The notes under the pieces: generated by a model
What the model was told of the DNA's origin: nothing
The model's database searches: none
The model's input: the letters and a program-made list of their open reading frames with translations, nothing else
Translations under genes and position numbers: made by a program
Origin: Odontesthes bonariensis
Taxonomy: Eukaryota > Chordata > Actinopteri > Atheriniformes > Atherinopsidae
Reading direction: 5' to 3'
Assembly: GCF_027942865.1 (NCBI RefSeq)
Contig: NC_134526.1
Span: 21,743,784-21,807,783, forward strand
DNA length: 64,000 nucleotides
In this document: positions 499-60,740 of the stretch, in pieces
Position numbering within the stretch: the stretch's first letter is position 1
How the letters are laid out: every line of letters starts with the position of its first letter

Positions 499-3400
499 TT
501 CTTTGCCTCCATGATCTCCACCTTCACTCTGAACTTCTTCCTCAGTATCTATAACAAAAAACCAGGAGAGCTTTCCAATCCAGGTCTCATAAACTTTGGA
601 CGCTTCGAGAGTGAAGTAAGGAGCTAAAGAAATAGTTTTTTATTTTCTTTTGTGCAAAAAAAAAAAAAAAAACAAACACCACGACATTCATTTATTTATT
701 TTTCTTCCAGATAATGGAGTACAACCTCTATGAGATTCCCCTGTTCATTGCTATGGGAGCTTTAGGTAAGATCTGTTTAACGACTGTAGAAATCTGTACA
801 ATTTTTGACATCATAGAATGTCCAAAAAACAATGCGCTTGCTTCTGTGTCTGCCTACAGCGTACAGCAGCAGTCACTCCACCCTGATGTGATATATCACT
901 TAAATGTCAAATGATTAGAAACCCAATCATCTTTCAAACTCTGCTTCATTTTAAAGTCAACAAGAATTGTCGTTATTGTCGAATGTCGCAGAGAAATGGG
1001 GCGTTCCTCCACAGAATGTTTTGTTATTGAATTTGTAATTACGTTTGAAAGCTCATTTGTGTGCCTTTGTTCTGTTTGTCATCCCTTTTTGCTGTTTAGG
1101 AGGAATATTGGGAGCTCTGTTCAATGTGCTCAACTACTGGCTGACCATCTTCAGGATCAGGTATGGAGTTTAGAAAGGGATCAAACATTTGCAAATGCAA
1201 ACTTTCATGAAATGTTCGAACACACATGGAAGCATGAAGCTTTTGCTCTTGGTTTTCACAGATAGGGTGGGGGCGTATGCATAGTGCGAATTACGGGGGA
1301 ATTAACTAACCTGGGTGCCAGCCGAACTTAGCCCCGCCCATAAAATTTTTGCTCGGGAAGTTCGGTCTGGCTCTGCTCAGTTGGGAAATCTCTATGCTCA
1401 ACATCAAAACAGTCGACCCAATCAGATTGCCAGGGTGGGCTTTATACGATGATGGACAGATGATCAACAGGGACATTATCGACTACGTCACTAAAGAGCG
1501 CTTGGTTTGAATTCGTTTGAAACAAACATGGCTGCCGCTGGAGAGCTAGGGTGTGTATATTCTGCCATCGAGTCTGTTCTACAGGATCTCCACATTGCAT
1601 TCATTTTGAAAGACAAACAGAGGAACGCGATAAAGGCTTTTATCGATAGAAAAGATGTTTTTGCCGTCCTTCCTACAACAAGTGTGTAGGGATGGGAATT
1701 GATAAGATTTTTACGATTCCAATTCCATTTTCAATTCTGCTTAACGATTCGGTTCTTTATCGGTTCCCTTATCGATTCTCATTTGGAGGAAAAGGACAAC
1801 AAACCGGTCGATTAGCATCAACTTTGTTTAGTTTAGAAGTAACACGAGTCATGACCTTACAAACCCAACAACGGTGAGGTCCACATTGGTCTTTCATGGC
1901 CTGGGTAATTTAACTCTTCCCTGCTCTGGTGAAAGGAGAAGCTAGAGGTAGACCTTAACTGGGGGTAGTACCACCAGCCTCTAGCTCTGAGCCAGTCAGG
2001 CTCTGTCTCTCATGATTTCATCTAAATGTAATGCCTAAGAAGGCTTTCATTTAACCTTAACCGTTACTAACAGCAGCTTTTACAATGAGGCAAATGGCGC
2101 TAACATGATAGGCAGTGTTTGTTAGTTAGTGACCTGCAGTGTTAGCCGAGGACATGCTAACGTTGCTGCTGCTGCTGGGTTCAGATTCACCAACGTTAGT
2201 CCGGAGCAGATCGAAAACGCGACATTCATTCATAGTTATTGCATGTTGGTAGTATTTCCTCCCTTTGGTGAAATATTCACTTTGCAAGTTGCCCTGTTGT
2301 CGTCTTTTTTAGGGATGTGTAACCAAACCTTCGAGCGTTTGTACCGCTTGGGCCCCATGTTTACTGTTGACTGCTGGCTGTGCTGGACTTGCCACGCAAC
2401 GTTGCTTGGTGACGTCATTTGCGCCCACTGGAATCGATAAGGGAATCGTTTGCAAAATCGCCAAAGGATTCCAAGGAATTGAAACACTGGGAACCGGTTC
2501 TCAACAAGAACCAGTTCTCGATCCCCATCCCTACAAGTGTGTGTCGCTTAATCTACGTCACATACTACGTTGCTCTGATTGGTTGTAGGTCTATCCAATT
2601 GAGCGAAGAGGCATTTTTTTCTCCTGGTTCGGTTGAAACATCCCCACCCCCTTATCCGTAATCATAAATATTACAATACACAGTATATTCCATATTCATG
2701 CCAAGAAGATGCTTGTAGTAAAATGTCAGGCTGTACCATTTCATTGTCTGTCTGCCTCTCACTGGATCACGTCCAAGTCGGCGGGTGCATGGAATTTTTT
2801 TTTGCGCCAGTGCTTTGTTGCAAGTAGCTGTAGATGAATGTAAGTAGCTATCTAACTAGTTTATTACACTTAACTTTCAGAGTTTCAGAATTCTATTGTG
2901 TCAGGTGACTTCAGACAAATGCTAACGTGCGTCTATGGCTTTCCATCTAAATGGAAAATGTCATCATGTGAAAGTTAGCGTACATGTTATTCAATGTAAG
3001 CTTTGTGCCCTGTGCTCGTCACTCTAGTAACATAATCTAGTTGTAAACGATGCCTAAAGCGTGCTGCGTTGCCAGGTTTGACAGTTGCCCCCTTTTCGAA
3101 ACCACATTAAATTGAATTGACAGGAGAAATATAATAGGGATGTCTGCGTGTTTTTAGTGTTATTTGTGTATTAGCGTAGCACATCATATAATAATAAACT
3201 ATTGTATTATATTGTTTAATTTTAATAGGCTTTTGAGTGGTGTTTCAGATAGGCTTTTGCCTTCTCCTGAATTAGTTGAAAATATAAGGATCACTGAGTC
3301 GATAGATTACAGTCAGGTACAGGTCCACACTAGCATGTATGCTAACACATTTGCATGTTAATAGTGTGTTTGGATCTGGTTCAGCATCGTGTAGATCTGC

Positions 3401-32900: not shown

Positions 32901-34133
32901 GTTGGATTTCAGTCTTCAAGAGAAAGCTTTTTTTTCTGGCGTTGTGCCAATCAAATGAGCAGTCTGAATGTGTACAGGGAAAATGAAACTGTCCTGTGAG
33001 GCATGTGCCTTTGGAAGCTGTCACTGTTGCCCCTCGATATCCAAAAGCAATTGAAACAGGCCCTCATTAAATTGTAAATGGTGGGTAAACATTTACAGTA
33101 TATTGCATTTTTTAAGTCTTCTTGAGCACATGTGTGTCTTACTCATGAGCACATAGCTGGTAAGATAGGCTGGAGTTCAGCAATACTACACTTTGGTGAA
33201 TAGTTACTGATTCCTCATCCTATCTGTGAATCGCTGTATTAATCTTGAAGCTTCTCCGGCTGTTAATTCAAATTGTGGAAAACACCCCTGTAATGGCAAG
33301 GCTGTAAGCCTTAAAGCCAGTGAGATAAGAATGAGAAAAGAGTATCAAGTGTTTTGGCATAAAATCAATTAAAGCAAGACGATTGTCCCTGTATTGCTAA
33401 CAGTCCTGTCAAAAAGAAGAATGTGTCCTGTTGCAGCAAAATACCCCGAGGTTAATTTGTGTGTCTGTGTGTGTTTGTGGGAAGACTTGGGAATCTAGGG
33501 ATTTGGCCTCAAAGGAAAAGGGAGATCAGGGAGGCACAAAAAGTGGCTGACTCTGCTGTGCTGCGAGGACACCTACTGGATAAATGCCGTCACTGCAGCC
33601 TCCTAAAGCCTTCTGAAGTGGATGCTCTCCATTTCACAAAACCTTTTGTCCTTTTGGCGGAGGGTGGAGAGGTTTGTATCAGCAAAGAAAGCAGATTATA
33701 GAAATAAATGTATCTGTGTGTTTGCAGGTGAACAAAGAAATTGTTTCTGGCCTGAAGTACCGTCATGTGACCTACAGAAAAGGAGTAAGAGGTACGTTTA
33801 GTTTTCACTCAATGATCTATATGCGAAAAATCTTAAATTTGAAGTCATAAGATACGTTTCTAAAGAAGACTAAGAGTGCTGAATTTTCCCCTTTTCTCTT
33901 GAACTTGCCACATGTCCATTCTGCATCTGCCCTCAGTGAACAAGTTGGTGTGCATGGTGGGAAGTCACGCCCCGCGAGCGGACGAGCAGGAGTTTCTGTG
34001 CCCAGCTGAGGAGGCGCCTAAAGGCATGATGTCTCGTGGCCATTATCTGATCAAGTCCTGCTTCACCGATGACGACAAGAATGTCTACTTAGCCTGGGAG
34101 TGGAACCTCATCATCAGCAAGGACTGGAATTAA
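13875..34133 (+). CDS. arhgdig: Rho GDP-dissociation inhibitor 3 (RhoGDI-gamma), 222 aa
   Basis: RhoGDI proteins extract prenylated Rho GTPases from membranes and hold them GDP-bound in the cytosol; the gamma form is membrane/Golgi-associated and enriched in brain. Exons are 13875-13947, 25013-25186, 26328-26411, 30889-30965, 33728-33791 and 33937-34133, totalling 669 nt with GT-AG borders. The first exon encodes [19 protein letters not shown], the hydrophobic amphipathic N-terminus specific to RhoGDI-3, which is absent from RhoGDI-1 and -2. This identifies the paralogue. Exon 2 gives the regulatory arm ([20 protein letters not shown]). Later exons give the immunoglobulin-like prenyl-binding fold ([28 protein letters not shown]) and end at ISKDWN, the family's usual C-terminus. 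Length matches mammalian RhoGDI-3 (about 225 aa). Intron 1 is 11 kb; the start codon follows AACC, a good Kozak context. Confidence 0.95.
14077..14100. repeat. (GT)n microsatellite
   Basis: Twelve GT units in arhgdig intron 1. Confidence 0.9.
14445..14481. repeat. (GT)n microsatellite
   Basis: About 17 GT units with one interruption, arhgdig intron 1. Confidence 0.9.
17735..17761. repeat. (GT)n microsatellite
   Basis: About 13 GT units in arhgdig intron 1. Confidence 0.9.
19850..20010 (+). repeat. LINE 3'-end-like remnant
   Basis: The wording TTGAGGTGGCTTGGACATCT, then CAGATGCTTTCCAGGGGCGA, then GGAGGAGGCCTGGGGGCTGA, then TAAGCGGCAGAAAATAG is a diverged form of the dispersed 3' tail of a LINE family common in teleosts. 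There is no intact ORF. Confidence 0.5.
21480..21660 (+). repeat. tRNA-derived SINE/LINE-tail remnant
   Basis: GTGGTGGTTAATACTG followed by GGTTCAAATCC (21526-21536) matches an RNA polymerase III B-box in the usual spacing for a tRNA-like head. It is followed by GATGGACTGTGACCTGTCCA and a GGAAAATGGACTGATGGATA tail, as in common fish SINE/LINE repeats. Confidence 0.5.
25187..25213. repeat. (GT)n microsatellite abutting a splice donor
   Basis: The GT run starts directly at the donor of arhgdig exon 2 (exon ends at 25186), so the donor site is itself part of the repeat. Confidence 0.9.
25645..25990. mobile_element. Tc1-like element end fragment
   Basis: CAGTGTTGTGCCAAAGTCTT followed by GAGCCACCCCTCATTTCTTT is the terminal inverted-repeat type also seen at 36272 and 59879. 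TCTTGGTCGGTAGTTCTCCA follows in the antisense direction of a Tc1-type transposase. Only one end is recognisable. Confidence 0.5.
28392..28410. repeat. Poly-G run
   Basis: An unusually long homopolymer of about 19 G in arhgdig intron 3. It is prone to length error in assembly and could form a quadruplex. Confidence 0.9.
29956..29986. repeat. (GT)n microsatellite
   Basis: About 15 GT units in arhgdig intron 3. Confidence 0.9.
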
Positions 34134-36271: not shown

Positions 36272-36674
36272 ATTGTACTGTGCAAATCTCATGAGCCACC
36301 CCAAATATTTCTGTATATTGCCAAGAAATAGGTTATTGAAATGTGCAAACATTAAGGAAAATACAGTGTATAAAGAAAAAGCAGAGTTTGAACAGTTCTT
36401 CCGAGCTTGAAAGTCAGTGTTCGGTATGACCACCTTTATTCTTAAACTAGCTTTCTGGGGATTTCTTTAAGTCGTCTTCAGGAATAGTTCTCCAGGCTTC
36501 TTGAAGGACATCCCAAAGCTCTTCTTTGGATGTCGGCTGCCTTTTGTTCCATTCTCTATCGAGATGATCCCACACAGCTTCAATGATGTTGAGGTCCGCG
36601 CTCTGGTGAGGATTCATCCCTCCATAGGACCTGTTGCCACTGATTTTCAGTCCACTTCTTGAGTCATTTGGCAC
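36272..36674 (-). mobile_element. Tc1/mariner-like transposase C-terminal fragment
   Basis: On the minus strand 36447-36674 reads SADLNIIEAVWDHLDREW followed by KRQPTSKEELWDVLQEAW. This is the Tc1-family C-terminal region around the DDE-domain catalytic acid (normally SPDLNPIEN-W). A Tc1-type terminal sequence, TGTACTGTGCAAATCTCATG, starts near 36276. The N-terminal DNA-binding part is missing, so the copy is dead. Confidence 0.75.
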
Positions 36675-37822
36675 ACCTCACCCTTCTCCTCTTCTCTCAC
36701 CCTTCCATGGAGACCATTTAAAAAAAACATACTTGTTCTTTTTTGCTCTGTTCCTTAAATCTTCAGAAAAGATCATCAGAAGTAGTACGACAGAGAATTT
36801 ATTTATTGAGCTATTTAGAATTCAATAATGAGAATTAAACATTGCACAGGACAGCTATGAAAAAAATAAACCGATATGTTTAAAGACATTAGCACATGTA
36901 AGGAGTCATTTACATAAGCACACACTAGGGCATGTAACCACATCTAGGAATTTATGAGTAATTGTTAGTTTTTACAACAGAGAAATGGCCCAGAGCGTTT
37001 GGTTGCATAATTATAAAAACTCTCTGATCAGATGCAGCCGCAGATGCATTGGATACTTATTGCTTTTCACCCCATAATAATGTGTCACACTGGAACTTTA
37101 ACGGTGTATGATGTAGGTTATCCATCTCACAGCTGTCTGCAATCATTTGCCGGAGGATTTGAAGCATTTTCGTTTTCAGCTATTCCGGGAGGAATTGTTA
37201 TCATACTTAAAAGAAAGAATGGTGTCTTTTGTTTTCACCCCTCTGTGCAACTTTGACATATTGGCTGTTTATTGTTCTTCTCACACCCGAATGGCCCCTT
37301 TGAACGATAAATCTGTTGTTGTTGTAATGCAGATTACAATTACACCGTCTGGAAAACTAAACTGTCAAAAAACGTTCTCATAAAGCTGCATAGACATCAT
37401 AAGATGGGCTCTTTAAATGCATCGAGGCATGTAAAAAGAAACCAGTACATTTAATTTAGTGCTCGTGATTTATCTTTGACTGTAGAAATATTTGACCATT
37501 GCTGGTGAGATGTGAAAAACAACAATACTGCTGCATTTTGTCCCTTACTCGGAAAAGATGAAGTGTAAGTGATTCGGAGAGTCTGAGCCATATAAAACAA
37601 GGAACTTCACGCTTAAGTCTCTTTGTTTCATCCCCAATGCCCCTTTTCAGGTCAAGAAAAGCTACTCTATGTAGGCCTACATTACTGAGCTATACAAGCA
37701 AAATAACAAACAATAGAATTAATGAAAAAAACAACAACACATACTTGATAGAAGGATATGAAGTCTATTTACAAAAGGACAGTGTGCGGGTGAGCATCTG
37801 TCAGTGCACCCATCTGTCCAGC
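36675..37822. other. Intergenic region without recognised content
   Basis: AT-rich, with several short open frames on the plus strand (37032-37383, 37637-37969) that lack any recognisable family signature. I see no feature to support here. Confidence 0.4.
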
Positions 37823-38753
37823 TCATTTGTGAGTCATGGCAGTGGTGTTGTTGCTTCTGAGTGCCTGCTCCAGCAGGGCTCGATGGGCTTCTGCAGGCAG
37901 GTACAGGAAAGAGTAGATGAGCGCCAGAAGCAGCAGTGCCAGCAGCAAAAAGAGGCCACAGTCCGCTGACATTAAAGGCTCATTACAGCGAGCCTGCATA
38001 AATGAATTATTATGCATGATAGACAGTATCTTCGCTAAAGATTTGGGCTTGATTGGGAAAAATTCAGTCAAAGGACCTTGGTGTTGTTCGCAGAAATTGA
38101 ACTTGTTTTTGTTCAATGTACTGAAAGATACTCGTGTTAGACCACCAAAATCCACCCAAAGTCAAAGACGAGTAGGGGAACTGGATCAGAGAAGACCTGA
38201 CAAAAATCCCACGTTTTGAGCTCCTCACCAAAGGATCCAAAAAAGGCGTGGAAATGATGGAGAAAGTTGGTTTGGGAAATGTGGAGTCAGCTTCATCCAG
38301 AGTACCGGGGTCTATCTTCAATGAGCAAAAAAGAAAAAGCTGAAAAACGTTTACAGAATTAGATTTTGAAACAAGGTTAACAAAAAAAATAAATTAGATC
38401 CATCTTACTCATCGTAAATAATTACGAAATACCTGTATTATCTGCAGTGTTTGCAAGGTCAGCCTCTCTCCTCTTTATCCTCTCCTTCTGTCATCAGATG
38501 GAAATGTCTGTGTCGTGTGTGCATGCGTGCAAAGCTTCGTTGTCCCTGCATTGCCAGGTAAGCAGGGCAACCTGCTCTGTGAGATGTTACGAAACAATAA
38601 CCAGAAAACCAATAACAAAGACATATTCTGAATTTAATTCTCACTCATCTATAAACGCACACACAAGCCCAAAACTGAGGCAGGTTGTGTTATGAAATAT
38701 GAATTATATAATAAATCATAATCATCTTACCTCTGAAACACACTCATACCTGG
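37823..38753 (-). CDS. Candidate unrecognised gene: terminal exons of a tail-anchored membrane protein (partial)
   Basis: Four minus-strand segments chain in frame with AG/GT borders. From 5' to 3' in gene order they are 38731-38753, 38433-38487, 38229-38311 and 37823-37993, where the last includes the TGA stop. Junction phases agree (0, 1, 0). The translation runs RYECVSE / KERIKRREADLANTADNT / DPGTLDEADSTFPKPTF...FLDPL / ARCNEPLMSADCG, then a 20-residue hydrophobic helix rich in L and A (FLLLALLLLALIYSFLYL), then a polar 25-residue tail ending TTAMTHK. The last exon is GC-rich and CTG-rich, unlike its AT-rich surroundings. The predicted topology is a single-pass C-terminal anchor. I do not recognise the protein. 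Upstream exons were not found with confidence; 39010-39080 has a weak candidate. The first 23-nt segment is the least certain. Confidence 0.45.
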
Positions 38754-39329: not shown

Positions 39330-39760
39330 ATTGGATGGGTTTTAGGTAGCCCTTTCCACTCGTTTTGACAAATTTGACAAAACAATTAGATTTGTTGGTC
39401 TCCTGGCATGGAGACGTCTTTTAAACACATATTTTCAACAGGGTTGAAGTTAAGCCTTTAGGAAGGACATTTCAAAAGCTCCATGTTAGCCTGCTTTATT
39501 CATTCTACCACCAGTTTTGAGGTGGGAACTCTTAGTTGTGTCCCTGTTTTAGCTTTTTTTGTCTGATGATGTGTAGTTAATGCTGAAGCAGTCTGAGGTG
39601 CTCTTTTTTCTTTGTTACTTTATCTGCTTTGTGCAAATTACCAACCTCAGCGGCAGCAAAACTGTCTCAGATCATGATGCCACCACCACCATGTCTAACA
39701 GTTTGTACAGTGTCCTTAGCAGGGTGGAGCCCAACGTTTTAGACACAGCACTTTAACAAG
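39330..39760. mobile_element. Decayed Tc1-like DNA transposon fragment
   Basis: Wording such as AGATCATGATGCCACCACCA, the antisense of a Tc1-type transposase coding stretch, and TTTGTTGGTCTCCTGGCATG are typical of old Tc1-like copies in fish. No open frame survives and the borders were not found. Confidence 0.4.
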
Positions 39761-40005
39761 TATGGACTTGGGCTACATTAGAATAGGCTCTTGTGAAAAC
39801 AAATTCACTGCGATTGATATAGTGTGTAGAAACGAGACAGATTTGAGGTGAAGCATTAGATGTGAAGACCCCATTCCAAATGGATAAATATAAAACATGA
39901 AATAGGACTATAGTGGGCGAAACCACACTGCCAAAACAAAAAGATTGTAAAGAAAGCAAAAAAAGCAAAAAAAAAGCCAGAGAGAAGATCATTTCACGTG
40001 CCCTA

Positions 40006-40020
40006 CCAGTTGGTGGCGCT
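40006..40020. promoter_or_regulatory. CTCF-like motif
   Basis: CCAGTTGGTGGCGCT differs from the CTCF core (CCASYAGRKGGC) at one position. It lies 50 bases upstream of the NRF1-type palindrome. The match is by eye only. Confidence 0.3.
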
Positions 40021-40070
40021 AATTTATTTGCCAAACGCAAATAAAACCTAAAAAATCCTCAAAGAAGACT

Positions 40071-40155
40071 TTGCGCATGCGCAACGTTAGTATGTGCGAT
40101 GTGATTATGTTTACGTCTGTCAGAAAAACGTTGACGTTTTCGCTCTTCATTCTTG
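40071..40155 (+). promoter_or_regulatory. NRF1-type promoter element and probable non-coding first exon of rpusd1
   Basis: TTGCGCATGCGCAA (40071-40084) is a perfect palindrome containing the NRF1 consensus GCGCATGCGC, usual close to the start site of housekeeping genes. Some 70 bases on, ATTCTTG is followed by GTAAGT, a strong splice donor (exon end 40155). No other gene starts before rpusd1, whose coding exon has a likely acceptor at 42503, so I infer a 5' UTR exon. An ATG at 40092 opens a short upstream ORF (MCDVIMFTSVRKTLTF) which, if spliced to 42504, is out of frame with the rpusd1 start. Confidence 0.5.
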
Positions 40156-41229
40156 GTAAGTTTTTCGGGTTATTTTAGTTCTCCAATATTGGATTGAATT
40201 ATTTTGTCAGTCTCGGTTACAGATAGCATAAGTTTCCTGTTGCTGTTTTAGCATCCAGCTGCTAGCAAACCAGCGGTGCTGAGATGCTGAGTGCACAAGT
40301 AGTTCTCATTCATACGTCCTTTGCTGCCACCGAAAAATAAGAAGTTATTATCCCTACCGAAGCAGCGATAAATAGGGTTGTGTCACACACGACAGCACTG
40401 ATTTTCTTTCATGACAAAGAAATGAATAAGAAAAAGAAAAGCCAACGTCATTTGATCGGAAACCAACAGCGTCGTGAAGCAACACCTGAAAGATGGGTGG
40501 GAAAAGCTATGAAAGAAGGGCAGGAAAGAAAGAGCGAAGTGTTTTACAGATTTTAAATGGAAGGACGTGTGCTGGTAGAAACAGAAGAGAAGAAACGAAA
40601 ATAGCCCGATTTAGATGAGGGCACGCAGCACTTAGAAAAAACCCACGATACCACAGGTGGATGTGACGACTGTAGGCAACATGGAGAGATGAGGCAGGAA
40701 GAAGATGCATCATCCAACCCTCAATTATGATATTGTAATGTTTCTGTATCATTGAGCAACTAATGTGACTGCGAGGGAGGAGTTTTTAGGTGTTTTTTTT
40801 TTTTTTTTTAAAATACAGTAAATTGATCATCATCCTGATCCTCTCTCCAGACCAAACCGCCATTAAAACTCAAGAAAAGGGACGCTTAGCTGTACCGACG
40901 ACAGCAACTCTCAGTGAAGGCAGTTATTATTATTTTTTATTATTGTTTTGGTCCTTGCTGCGTGGCAAAGTGCGGCAGCGCTTCACATGAGCGTCATGGG
41001 AGAGAACTGGAGAAACGAGTTTTAGAAGCCTGCTGAGAAAAAGCAGGTGACAGTCAGTGTGGGGCTGGCCGGGACGGGGTGCTGAAATAAACCACGCGTT
41101 GGAAGAGAACCCTGAAGTGTGAGCTTGGAAGGATGGAAATGGATGAAAACCTCTTAAAGGACGACTTTGGGAAAGTGAAGTACAACACCAGACTATCTCA
41201 CTTTGACCTCTGTTGTGCCGCACCTTCCT

Positions 41230-41606
41230 TCACCACCTTTTTTCAGATGGTTCTCCTGACTCTCATGTGCCTGAGGCTGAATCTGCTTGTGTAACAAGTT
41301 TCCCACTTCTTTGATGTATACCAAAAAATTGTTGGCAGCACTTTCAGTGACACCATTGGTGTTTTTGAATGCACCACTTAGCTCCTTGTAGATTCCTTTG
41401 ATTTCTAAGGATGAGCTTGCATTAAAAAAACGCTGCCAGTTTGAAGCCCTGACCTTATAGCCACCGTCATCGTGGTTTCTTTGAAACAGCCCGTTTTGAG
41501 CCTTGTGGAGGCTCATCAACTTGCATCCCAAATAGGAAGCTGAAGTAACAGCCAGCCAGAAGCTGATAGATGAGTCCTGATTGTTACGTAGCTCCTCCTT
41601 CACCAA
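41230..41606 (-). other. Unassigned minus-strand open frame of about 125 codons
   Basis: The frame reads MVKEELRNNQDSSISFWLAV, later ASNWQRFFNASSSLEIKGIY and NNFLVYIKEVGNLLHKQIQ. The composition is protein-like and not low-complexity. It lies in the presumed first intron of rpusd1, antisense to it, and on the same strand as the candidate gene at 37823-38753. I do not recognise a family. It may be an exon of that gene, a retrocopy, mobile-element coding sequence or chance. Confidence 0.2.
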
Positions 41607-46387: not shown

Positions 46388-49325
46388 ATGACTTCCAAGG
46401 TTTTCTCGTATGAGAGTTTGGTCCATGCTGTGGCAGGAGCAGTGGTAAGTTAGCATATGTTTTTCTTTTTACTGTATGCCAATTGTTTACATTAAAAACG
46501 TTACAGTCTAATCTCTAAACACATTCTTTTTAAAGTCAAAATTTACCCCTTTTTTTGTTGGCTTTATCGGGCTAAATGCTACAACAAATTGAATGGTATG
46601 TAGGCTAATAATTAACCTTAACTTACCGAATTCAGTATATATATAGTCGAGTTTAGTATGTATTTTATTCTGTACGTACCGCTTGGATTGTACGTCTTTT
46701 TTAAGCTTCGCTTGGTGTGGTAATAATTTGTATACATATACAACTTTAGTCTTTCCTTTTAGTTTTGACTGTAACCTTTTTTTTTCTTAGGGAAGTGTGA
46801 CTGCAATGACAGTATTCTTCCCTCTTGATACTGCCAGACTGCGTCTTCAGGGTAAGGCACAGAGTGGATGTTGCCTCATTTAAGACTGGAACTACAGAAA
46901 CTGTCTAACGTGATTCTTTTCTCTTTTTGTTTGTGCTCAGTGGATGAAAATAGGAAGGCCAAATCTACCCCTGCCATACTGGCAGACATTGTCAAAGAAG
47001 AAGGACTGTGAGTGAAACAATGTTGTTCTATCAGACTTGAACGATGACACCAGAGAGCCTGTGCTGAAATGTTTAAACCCAGCGTCTTTTACTGTCCTTT
47101 TACAGACTAGCTCCCTACAGAGGTTGGTTCCCTGTCATCTGTAGCCTATGCTGCTCCAACTTTGTCTACTTCTACTGCTTCCACTGCCTAAAAAACAGCT
47201 GGCTGAATGGAAAGCAGTCGGCACCCACCGCTGACTTGGTCATAGGCATCGCTGCAGGTGAGACGATCGTTGACCATATCAGAAAAACCTTGTTTTAGTA
47301 AGTCGGGACAAGAAAGGTCCCAAATTCCTTCTCTCTTGACCAAGCAATAGGACGCCTTTCCCTTCATAGCCCACAGTGAATACCACTTAAACTGACAATA
47401 TTGGGTTTTTACGCGCTCTACCTATGTGATATGTCATACTTCATGATTCCTGTATCTAACTTAATGATTACATAGTGATTCAGAGTGGGGGAGGGATGCA
47501 TCACATCACTGCTTGATAATTGCCTCATGAGTTTATGACAAAGTTGCCAGATTTACAGAACAAAATAGAAACTAACCACAAACCACATTTGTCATCTGCC
47601 TTCTCATCTCATCAGGTGTTGTAAATGTACTAGTTACCACCCCTTTGTGGGTGGTCAACACCAGGCTGAAGCTCCAGGGCTCCAAGTTTCGCAGTGCAGA
47701 CATCCATCCCACCAACTACTCTGGGATTCTGGGTAAATGACCATTATTTGGATGAGCTTTTACTTTGTGTGTTTGTGTTTTTTTAATTTTATTTATTAGT
47801 ATGCATTCACTCATTGACTGTACACATCATTTCCATTTTTTAGATGCATTCGTGCAGATCGTCCAGGATGAGGGCGTCGGAGCCCTGTGGAACGGGACCT
47901 TCCCGTCCCTGTTGCTGGTGCTGAACCCCGCCATCCAGTTCATGATTTATGAAGGCCTGAAGAGGCAGCTGAGGAGAGGAGTTCCCAGGGAGGTGAGTGA
48001 CACAGAATGAGCAGGGTTAGGGCAAAGAGTCGTTATCTGAGTGAGAAGACACGAGATATGCAGATACTTGGTAATTCTGTGCACATGACTTTTTTGGGAG
48101 ACTTAAAGAGAGATTAGAGGTTAGGCATGTGTGGCGGCTCTGTTTCAAACCGCGTGCATTTTGACATTTTTTGCAGTCTACCAGAGCGTTTGTGGGATAA
48201 AAAGGAAAAAAACTTACGGGTCACAGTACACAAGGAAGAGACTTTTCCTTGTTCTTTTTACCACTTAGTGAGGGCATTTGAATTCTGAAAATGTCCTTGA
48301 CAAGCATGACACATTTAGAATACCACTGTTAATTTCCTGCCAAATCATCCTTCTTTTTCTCCCCAAAGCTGTCATCGGTGGAGATCTTCATGATCGGCGC
48401 CGTCGCCAAAGCCATCGCTACCACCGTTACATACCCACTGCAGACTATACAGTCCATACTTAGGGTGGGTTTCATCTGTGTCACGCGATTGCACGTTTAA
48501 AATCACGCATGGTATATCAATGAAAAAGAAGGTTTTGCCCTTAATTCGACTGTTTTTAACTATACTTTTGTAAACCCAGTTCGGTCAGTTCAACACATCA
48601 GCAGAGAAGTCGAAACTGCTAACGAGCGTGAGGACTATCAAGTCTCTATTGGTCAACAGAATGAGGTGGGTGTTTTGTGCACTAATTGCACAATCCGTTT
48701 TCAACTCAGCTTATTTGTCAGATGTTTCCACGTTTGTACATTCCTTTAAATACACTATAAAACGCAACAATGTGCACACATTGACTGGAAGCACGAGTAT
48801 GAACTTGTATGTGAGTTTCAAAGAATTTCTTAGGAAGTGTGAAAAGGTGTGGAAGGATATATTTGGCTCGCAGCCAAAATCGGAGTAGAATGTTTGCTTT
48901 TGCGTTATCTGGATGACACATTGACAAATTCGCTCTGTGCCCTGCAAATCTAGTTATCCTTTATATTTTAAATGGCAAATACACCGACCTAAAGTATGCA
49001 TAAGACAGTTTAGTTTATAAAGTTTTATTGTGACACACAAGAAAAACACAACTCCATTATTGCTGTTGCCTCCTCATGTTGGCAAGATTTAACTTAGACG
49101 GTTTATTATCATAAAGTTGATAAGACTATTTAATGCTATTTTGATGTTTTGACCTTGGCTCTCTGTTGTAGGAAGTATGGCATGTTGGGCCTGTTTAAAG
49201 GCCTGGAGGCCAAGCTGCTGCAAACGGTGCTGACCGCTGCCCTCATGTTCCTTCTCTACGAGAAGATCACTTACTGTACCTTCAGAGCCATGGGACTGAG
49301 CAACAGCCACTTAAGGAAACGTTAG
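46388..49325 (+). CDS. slc25a17: Peroxisomal membrane carrier PMP34 (SLC25A17 family), 312 aa
   Basis: SLC25A17 is the peroxisomal carrier that exchanges CoA, FAD, NAD+ and nucleotides across the peroxisomal membrane. Exons are 46388-46444, 46791-46851, 46941-47007, 47106-47257, 47616-47732, 47844-47992, 48369-48464, 48580-48665 and 49172-49325, totalling 939 nt with GT-AG borders. The threefold carrier repeat is clear: PLDTAR at residues 30-35, PLWVVNTR at 122-129 and PLQTIQ at 224-229, each ending an odd-numbered helix. [41 protein letters not shown] and [17 protein letters not shown] are diagnostic of PMP34 rather than other SLC25 members. Mammalian PMP34 is 307 aa. Teleosts also have a slc25a17-like paralogue and I cannot tell which of the two this is. 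The promoter carries a ZNF143-type element. Confidence 0.93.
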
Positions 49326-59878: not shown

Positions 59879-60740
59879 CAGTACTGTGCCAAACACTGTG
59901 AAACACCCCTCATTTCGTCTCATATAGGCGGTGAAAATGGGGAAATGGTTACAGCGGCTTTTTTGGAAATGTGTGCCAACATGAATGAAAATGCAGTAAA
60001 TTAAGCAAAAACAAAACACAGCCTGAACCCTCTGAGACAAACCTTCCTGTCATTTACTTTGAGTAGTCTTCAGGAATATCGAAGGACATCCCAAAGCTCT
60101 TCTTTGGATGTCGGCTGCCTTTTTATACCGTTCTCTGTCAAGATGATGCCACACTGCTTCAATGATGTTGAGGCCCGGGCTCTGGACCTTATTTTTTTTT
60201 TCTTATTTCTTAAGGACATCACTTTCAGACACTGTTCATCTGCTGTTCTTTTTGCGCTCCACTTTCTTTTGCCCGGTTTTCCACAATTTCTATAACTGAC
60301 GCAGCACACCGTGCAGAGTTATGTCAAGTTGTCGGCCAACAGCGATTCGGGGAATCTCCGTGTAAAAAAGAAACTACTATTTTGCGTCGTCATCTTTGGT
60401 ATTTTTTGCAGATACAACTAAAGAAATGTGGACACCGTATCTTTCTATGCGACTGCCTAAAGATACATTTTAACATGGCTTCTTAACCCAGTTGCTTGTC
60501 TGTTTATGCTTGAATGATTCATAGGTCAGTTTCAGTGGCCCAAATGAAAATGGTCGGCTACTCGGACCGCTCTTAAAACGAGTGAAAAAATCAGCCAATG
60601 TCCAAAGAAAAACTTTGACAGAGCTTCAGAAAGTCTTGAGGACTTTTGACGAAGGCCATTTTTAAAAGATTACAAGAAAGTCGAGACTCCTTGGAAGCAA
60701 AAAGAAATGAGAGGTGCCTCAAAAGTTTTGCACAGTGCTG
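59879..60740 (-). mobile_element. Internally deleted Tc1-like element with both ends
   Basis: The left end CAGTACTGTGCCAAACACTG and right end TTTTGCACAGTGCTG are inverted copies, each with a CCCCTCATTTC-like stretch inside (right side as GAAATGAGAGG). Minus-strand coding at 60070-60180 reads KRQPTSKEELWDVL and the SLKQCGIILTENG stretch just upstream of it, the same Tc1 C-terminal region as at 36447-36674. At about 860 bp it is roughly half of a full Tc1-like element. Frames are broken. Confidence 0.65.

Follow-up and report, generated by a model that had tools for sequence, protein, structure and literature searches.

Evidence for a small single-pass membrane protein encoded between arhgdig and rpusd1 in Odontesthes bonariensis, with a second copy in an intron of chtf18

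The window analysed here is a stretch of 64,000 nucleotides from Odontesthes bonariensis (contig NC_134526.1, C26:21743784-21807783 in our own-genome searches), and its gene content looks like that of a bony fish. On the plus strand a Rho_GDI match at 33939-34130 marks arhgdig; from their exon peptides we took other plus-strand genes to be clcn7, rpusd1, a slc25a17-like gene and znf598. Pfam searches with two rpusd1 exons and one clcn7 exon gave no match. The presumed slc25a17-like gene, at 46791-49325 (plus strand) between rpusd1 and znf598, is a mitochondrial-carrier gene (Mito_carr, E 2.7e-8). Upstream of rpusd1, at 39750-40500, the CpG observed/expected ratio is near 1; this segment might serve as a bidirectional promoter, driving rpusd1 on one side and a minus-strand transcript on the other.

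Traces of transposons were also seen. A Tc1/mariner-like transposase fragment at 36447-36677, minus strand (DDE_3, E 6.5e-5, below the curated cut-off), has an 87% identical copy within the window, at 60067-60185, and another on contig C4, at 3090 kb. A possible DDE transposon relic lies at 41238-41366, plus strand (HTH_Tnp_4, E 0.0016, below the curated cut-off); the ORF 41091-41294 alone gave no match to Pfam.

Between arhgdig and rpusd1 the original prediction placed a minus-strand gene built of four short exons and ending in a membrane anchor. The features that bear on this gene are as follows.

37823..37993, minus strand: conserved coding block of 56 codons, ARCNEPLMSADCGLFLLLALLLLALIYSFLYLPAEAHRALLEQALRSNNTTAMTHK followed by a stop, with one hydrophobic helix at 37957-37898
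37994..38017, minus strand: possible N-terminus, MHNNSFMQ, of an unspliced 64-codon reading (ATG at 38017-38015), or else the end of an intron (acceptor CAG at 37996-37994)
38315-38229 (38311-38229 in the original prediction), minus strand: Ser/Thr/Pro segment, IDPGTLDEADSTFPKPTFSIISTPFLDPL, a candidate exon, unconfirmed; donor 7.8, codon score -3.0
38487-38433, minus strand: predicted segment with KERIKRREADL, unsupported; acceptor 3.1, donor 5.1, codon score +2.4
38753-38731, minus strand: first predicted segment (RYECVSE), unsupported; donor 9.9, good, acceptor 1.2
39230-39117, minus strand: alternative upstream exon candidate, NSMLYVQNVAFVVDISEKMTGLLSHNSAVQLHLIDKLT, unconfirmed; phase 0/0, acceptor 10.5, donor 9.4, codon score -13.5

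Among 231 non-genic blocks of the window in which 56 open codons precede a stop, the block at 37993-37823 has the top codon score, 12.7, followed by its own antisense (7.2) and then by a block with 6.9. In 40 simulated sequences of 45 kb each, which yielded 10,456 open blocks, this score was never reached. The GC content of the block, 0.548 against a mean of 0.411, is matched by 49 of 3983 non-genic windows, and of the window's 17 strongly hydrophobic stretches of 20 residues its helix is the only one with a positive codon score. Together with a relative elsewhere in the genome, the GC content and the codon-score rank bear out the earlier claim that the GC-rich last exon goes beyond chance. 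We hold it as very nearly certain that the block is genuine protein-coding sequence; its product is the C-terminal portion of a small membrane protein that crosses the bilayer once. The original claim of an unrecognised coding sequence on the minus strand here, with a membrane anchor at its C-terminus, is thus supported.

The block can be taken as part of a real gene because a clearly related second copy sits elsewhere in the genome. A protein search of the fish's own genome (945 Mb, 187 contigs) gave at least two matches, the block itself and C4:3163400-3163528 (E 7.5e-6); locus counts in these searches are lower bounds, with the best candidates scored (3/3). The reverse search with the C4 protein recovered the window block at E 4.5e-8; the other match among the best candidates scored had E 0.9 and two stops, at a locus whose ORFs we take to be helicase. 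At the DNA level the region of the original prediction is single copy in the genome search. The C4 frame reads MWDQTEERRAAGGGSFFQARCDEVLVTNDWCLPLVLALLLLLLLYTFLYLPSLAHHNATL followed by a stop, a complete ORF of 60 codons that opens with an ATG of its own (C4:3163346-3163528) and has an in-frame stop five codons upstream of this ATG. Its N-terminal 18 codons are coding-like: of 4678 open, overlapping stretches of non-genic DNA, 32 score as high.

Over the 42 codons compared between the window and C4 copies, identities at codon positions 1, 2 and 3 number 22, 32 and 20, the conservation of position 2 having P 0.003 by permutation of identity flags, and 11 of the 23 identical residues are specified by different codons. 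With 23 of 42 residues identical to its relative the protein evolves fairly fast, in agreement with the suggestion that it may be a fast-evolving one. The C4 copy ends 14 codons before the window copy, its TGA falling inside the match; the tails of the two copies therefore differ, and one copy may have been shortened. A coding block that had been picked up from sequence alone was in this way backed by an independent second copy.

Given this pair, the coding strand can be judged from both copies. On the shared block the codon score in the window is 15.4 on the minus strand versus 7.9 on the plus strand. The per-codon sense margin is small, 0.16 (known exons have 0.01 to 0.66), and in all 19 known exons the sense frame outscored the in-phase antisense frame. 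A plus-strand reading would have a Gln-rich exon at 37877-37969, with an open frame, an acceptor of 8.7 and a codon score of 11.4, and the C4 copy, too, has an open antisense frame; however, when the copies are compared in this frame, only 15 of 42 residues are identical (BLOSUM62 sum 43) and the window copy has two stops, whereas the sense frame gives 23 of 42 and a sum of 100. The codon score of the C4 block over its 42 codons, +25.2 in sense versus 7.0 in antisense, goes the same way. We thus consider the plus-strand exon highly improbable, and the minus strand is well supported, from sequence comparison, as the coding strand of the window block; the cross-copy comparison of frames supports this choice more than codon use in the window alone. 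Hardly more credible is that both copies are remnants of a pseudogene or a transposon. The relics at 36447-36677 and about 41238-41366 are nearby (both below the Pfam cut-off), and the C4 copy ends earlier than the other; still, the 945 Mb yielded only two loci among the best candidates scored, codon position 2 is the most conserved, and neither copy has an internal stop before its own end.

The structure of the gene is a separate question. All four minus-strand segments of the original prediction (38753-38731, 38487-38433, 38311-38229 and 37993-37823) are present, with AG/GT borders and matching phases, and the three donors score 9.9, 5.1 and 7.8. The acceptors, in order, have 1.2, 3.1, -2.6 and 5.3 bits, whereas 23 acceptors of recognised window genes range from 5.2 to 12.8 bits; the latter were taken from the top of our own exon scan, so that weak true acceptors are under-represented and the yardstick is somewhat favourable, and the splice-site weights were consensus values. 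For the Ser/Thr/Pro segment the acceptor is 5.1 bits at 38315 and -2.6 bits at 38311, and the join with the KERIKRREADL segment, as originally drawn, requires the one at 38311, which is close to the median AG on the minus strand. The three-exon upstream chain totals 22.6. When this DNA was dinucleotide-shuffled 150 times, the top-scoring three-exon chains had a median of 22.7, and 18 of the 150 shuffles reached 29.6, the score of the best observed three-exon chain of any composition. As shuffled DNA gives equally good chains, the agreement of phase over three joins, put forward as beyond chance, is no evidence here. The KERIKRREADL and Ser/Thr/Pro exons, with their weak acceptors and codon scores of about +2 and -2 to -3, could not be upheld either, and the upstream exons have no counterpart found at C4. 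We believe there is very little chance that the four-exon chain is the true gene structure: of the gene as first proposed, the last segment stands as coding, with a relative in the genome, but the three upstream exons are at chance level. A plausible in-phase exon chain may equal shuffled DNA even though its last exon is genuine.

The window copy would be either an unspliced ORF of 64 residues, 38017-37823, or the terminal exon of a small gene with introns. Ahead of the common block S, F and Q are shared in frame with the C4 copy. Splicing at 37994 is to be reckoned with, because the N-terminal extension of the window copy has a codon score of -6.3, not coding-like, and is not alignable with the C4 copy beyond SFxQ. 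In both copies an AG directly precedes the shared residues (acceptor 5.3 in the window, low, and 11.5 in C4, strong), as would be the case if the block closed a longer tail-anchored protein encoded by several exons, the upstream ones being 38315-38229, 39230-39117 or others. Taken as a single upstream exon, 39230-39117 was equalled in 2 of 150 shuffles and 0 of 60 natural segments. The chain from 39230-39117 through 38315-38229 to 37993-37823 has better splice sites than the chain originally predicted, and splice-only scores of the 39230/38315 chain were equalled in 3 of 150 shuffles and 2 of 60 natural segments, but the codon scores of its upstream exons are poor (-13.5 and about -3); once a third upstream exon is included, the result is equalled in 24 of 150 shuffles, and the ORF on C4 begins at an ATG and ends at a stop of its own. 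A tblastn search near the C4 copy revealed no upstream exon common to both loci (best same-orientation E 0.004 versus 8e-4 for the opposite-orientation control), and a C4-like N-terminal exon was not found near the window copy (best minus-strand score 24, plus-strand control 25). A dynamic-programming search for complete genes was uninformative; it adds exons freely. We see the longer spliced protein as rather doubtful and, given that the block is real, lean towards the unspliced microprotein, with an N-terminus that in the window copy is inferred. Short single-exon genes and nested genes are easily missed in annotation.

The C4 copy is nested in such a way: it lies on the plus strand in an intron of chtf18, itself on the same strand, between exons 3162070-3162200 and 3165224-3165470, which match neighbouring stretches of the CHTF18 chain (8zwo_A, residues 814-855 and 858-944). 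Next on C4, on the opposite strand, there is a G-gamma-like exon (E 0.0006, below the Pfam cut-off), which we take to be gng13. As an alternative last exon of chtf18 the C4 block would not join to the exon directly upstream: exon 3162070-3162200 ends in phase 2 and the block starts in phase 0, and since the phases differ, the conserved frame is unreadable from this exon.

Human RPUSD1 and CHTF18 are head-to-head neighbours. PMC7279195 places human CHTF18, RPUSD1 and GNG13 in one chromatin domain. Because the three genes are together in human and the copies described here are beside rpusd1 and inside chtf18, the two copies are most likely to have come from the teleost genome duplication, after which each locus would have lost the other neighbour (the rpusd1 side in one case and chtf18 in the other). 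This origin rests on the human neighbourhood, as neither a shared ordinary gene nor a clear chtf18 remnant was found. In a comparison of window ORFs of at least 25 residues with 240 kb of C4 (E 1e-4), there were no shared ordinary genes among the matches listed: 12 of the 14 listed matches (16 in total) fell at one Tc1-like fragment, and none of those listed at chtf18. The two others involved 1495-1686 and 2990-3106 of the window. Of these, the plus-strand ORF 1495-1686 matches C4:3092515-3092679 (E 4.4e-9) and may be a repeat or belong to a gene family; we presume it to be helicase-like. When 473 plus-strand ORFs of the chtf18 region were compared with the window, no clear chtf18 remnant was seen among 16 matches with E <=0.05 (best 0.002), which were scattered. 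On the minus strand at 37.8-42 kb the block itself was the only match, with a match at 42132-42097 (E 0.025) just beyond. Provided that the two copies survived a genome duplication after which their neighbours were lost in opposite directions, the protein is probably needed.

As to the form of the protein, the hydrophobic stretch covers residues 21-40 of 64 in the window copy (unspliced) and 31-50 of 60 in the C4 copy, where no second hydrophobic stretch was seen by eye. A single helix thus stands near the C-terminus, as in tail-anchored proteins, at 10 to 24 residues from it. An AlphaFold single-sequence model of the C4 copy has helices at 5-27 and 32-59 (mean pLDDT 72.5, pTM 0.39). Common to both copies are the helix-end motif Y[ST]FLYLPxxAH and an invariant Asp just before the helix. 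Because the 60 codons on C4 form a complete ORF that starts at an ATG of its own, we read the pair as probable membrane microproteins of ~60 residues, in which a polar N-terminus leads into one Leu-rich helix that is followed by a short tail, also polar. Such a protein would be inserted into the membrane from its C-terminus, and the helix could then pack against a larger membrane protein and tune it. Judging by analogy, its action is most likely similar to that of other single-helix microproteins. The simple form of the protein would make a study by knock-out and tagging straightforward.

Taken as a whole, the observations are best explained by a pair of small single-pass membrane proteins derived by duplication, a reading to which we assign a probability of roughly 0.6. 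A more ambitious proposal is offered tentatively, and we would not bet on it: a previously undescribed vertebrate microprotein, nested in a CHTF18 intron, would have persisted in two copies since the teleost duplication, one of them without the host gene, and would tune a membrane protein.

The original prediction could name no known family for the protein, and our searches concur. The joined peptide of that prediction had no meaningful match in Pfam (E <=1), neither the C4 copy nor the alternative joined peptide hit any family at E <=10, and there was no match to KASH/nesprin, junctophilin or other C-terminally anchored Pfam families; fragments alone gave weak unrelated matches (OppC_N, 0.49; WH_AprA, 0.047). 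PDB searches produced no relative, the rows being TTHB210 (E 0.76) and cannabinoid receptor 1 (E 1.3 and above); with the profile of the pair, seven sequences were collected up to E 10, all of them cannabinoid receptor 1. There was no relative in Rfam, nor among viral and prokaryote contigs, where a fish gene is not expected. Titles and beginnings of abstracts in the literature on the neighbour genes, chtf18 and microproteins contained nothing on this gene, which may still be described elsewhere in print.

Among known systems, small integral membrane proteins of SMIM type are similar in being short, with one helix and no other domain. The pair differs from them in that this protein, its parts and the C4 copy have no meaningful Pfam match; the label is one of form, not of family. 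The regulins (phospholamban, sarcolipin, myoregulin, endoregulin and another-regulin) are tail-anchored micropeptides that bind the SERCA pump. In PMC8396278 MLN and PLN are described as tail-anchored, and regulins as acting on a membrane pump. The pair resembles them in small size, a single C-terminal helix and a short tail. It differs in sequence, with no match and with no regulin among the seven PDB profile hits to E 10, and an equivalent of the polar Asn34 of PLN, noted in PMC8396278, is not evident in its helix, although alignment of a bare helix is unreliable. With generic tail-anchored proteins the pair shares the closeness of the helix to the C-terminus; unlike them, both of its tails carry an N-x-T sequon near the C-terminal end, which may go unused.
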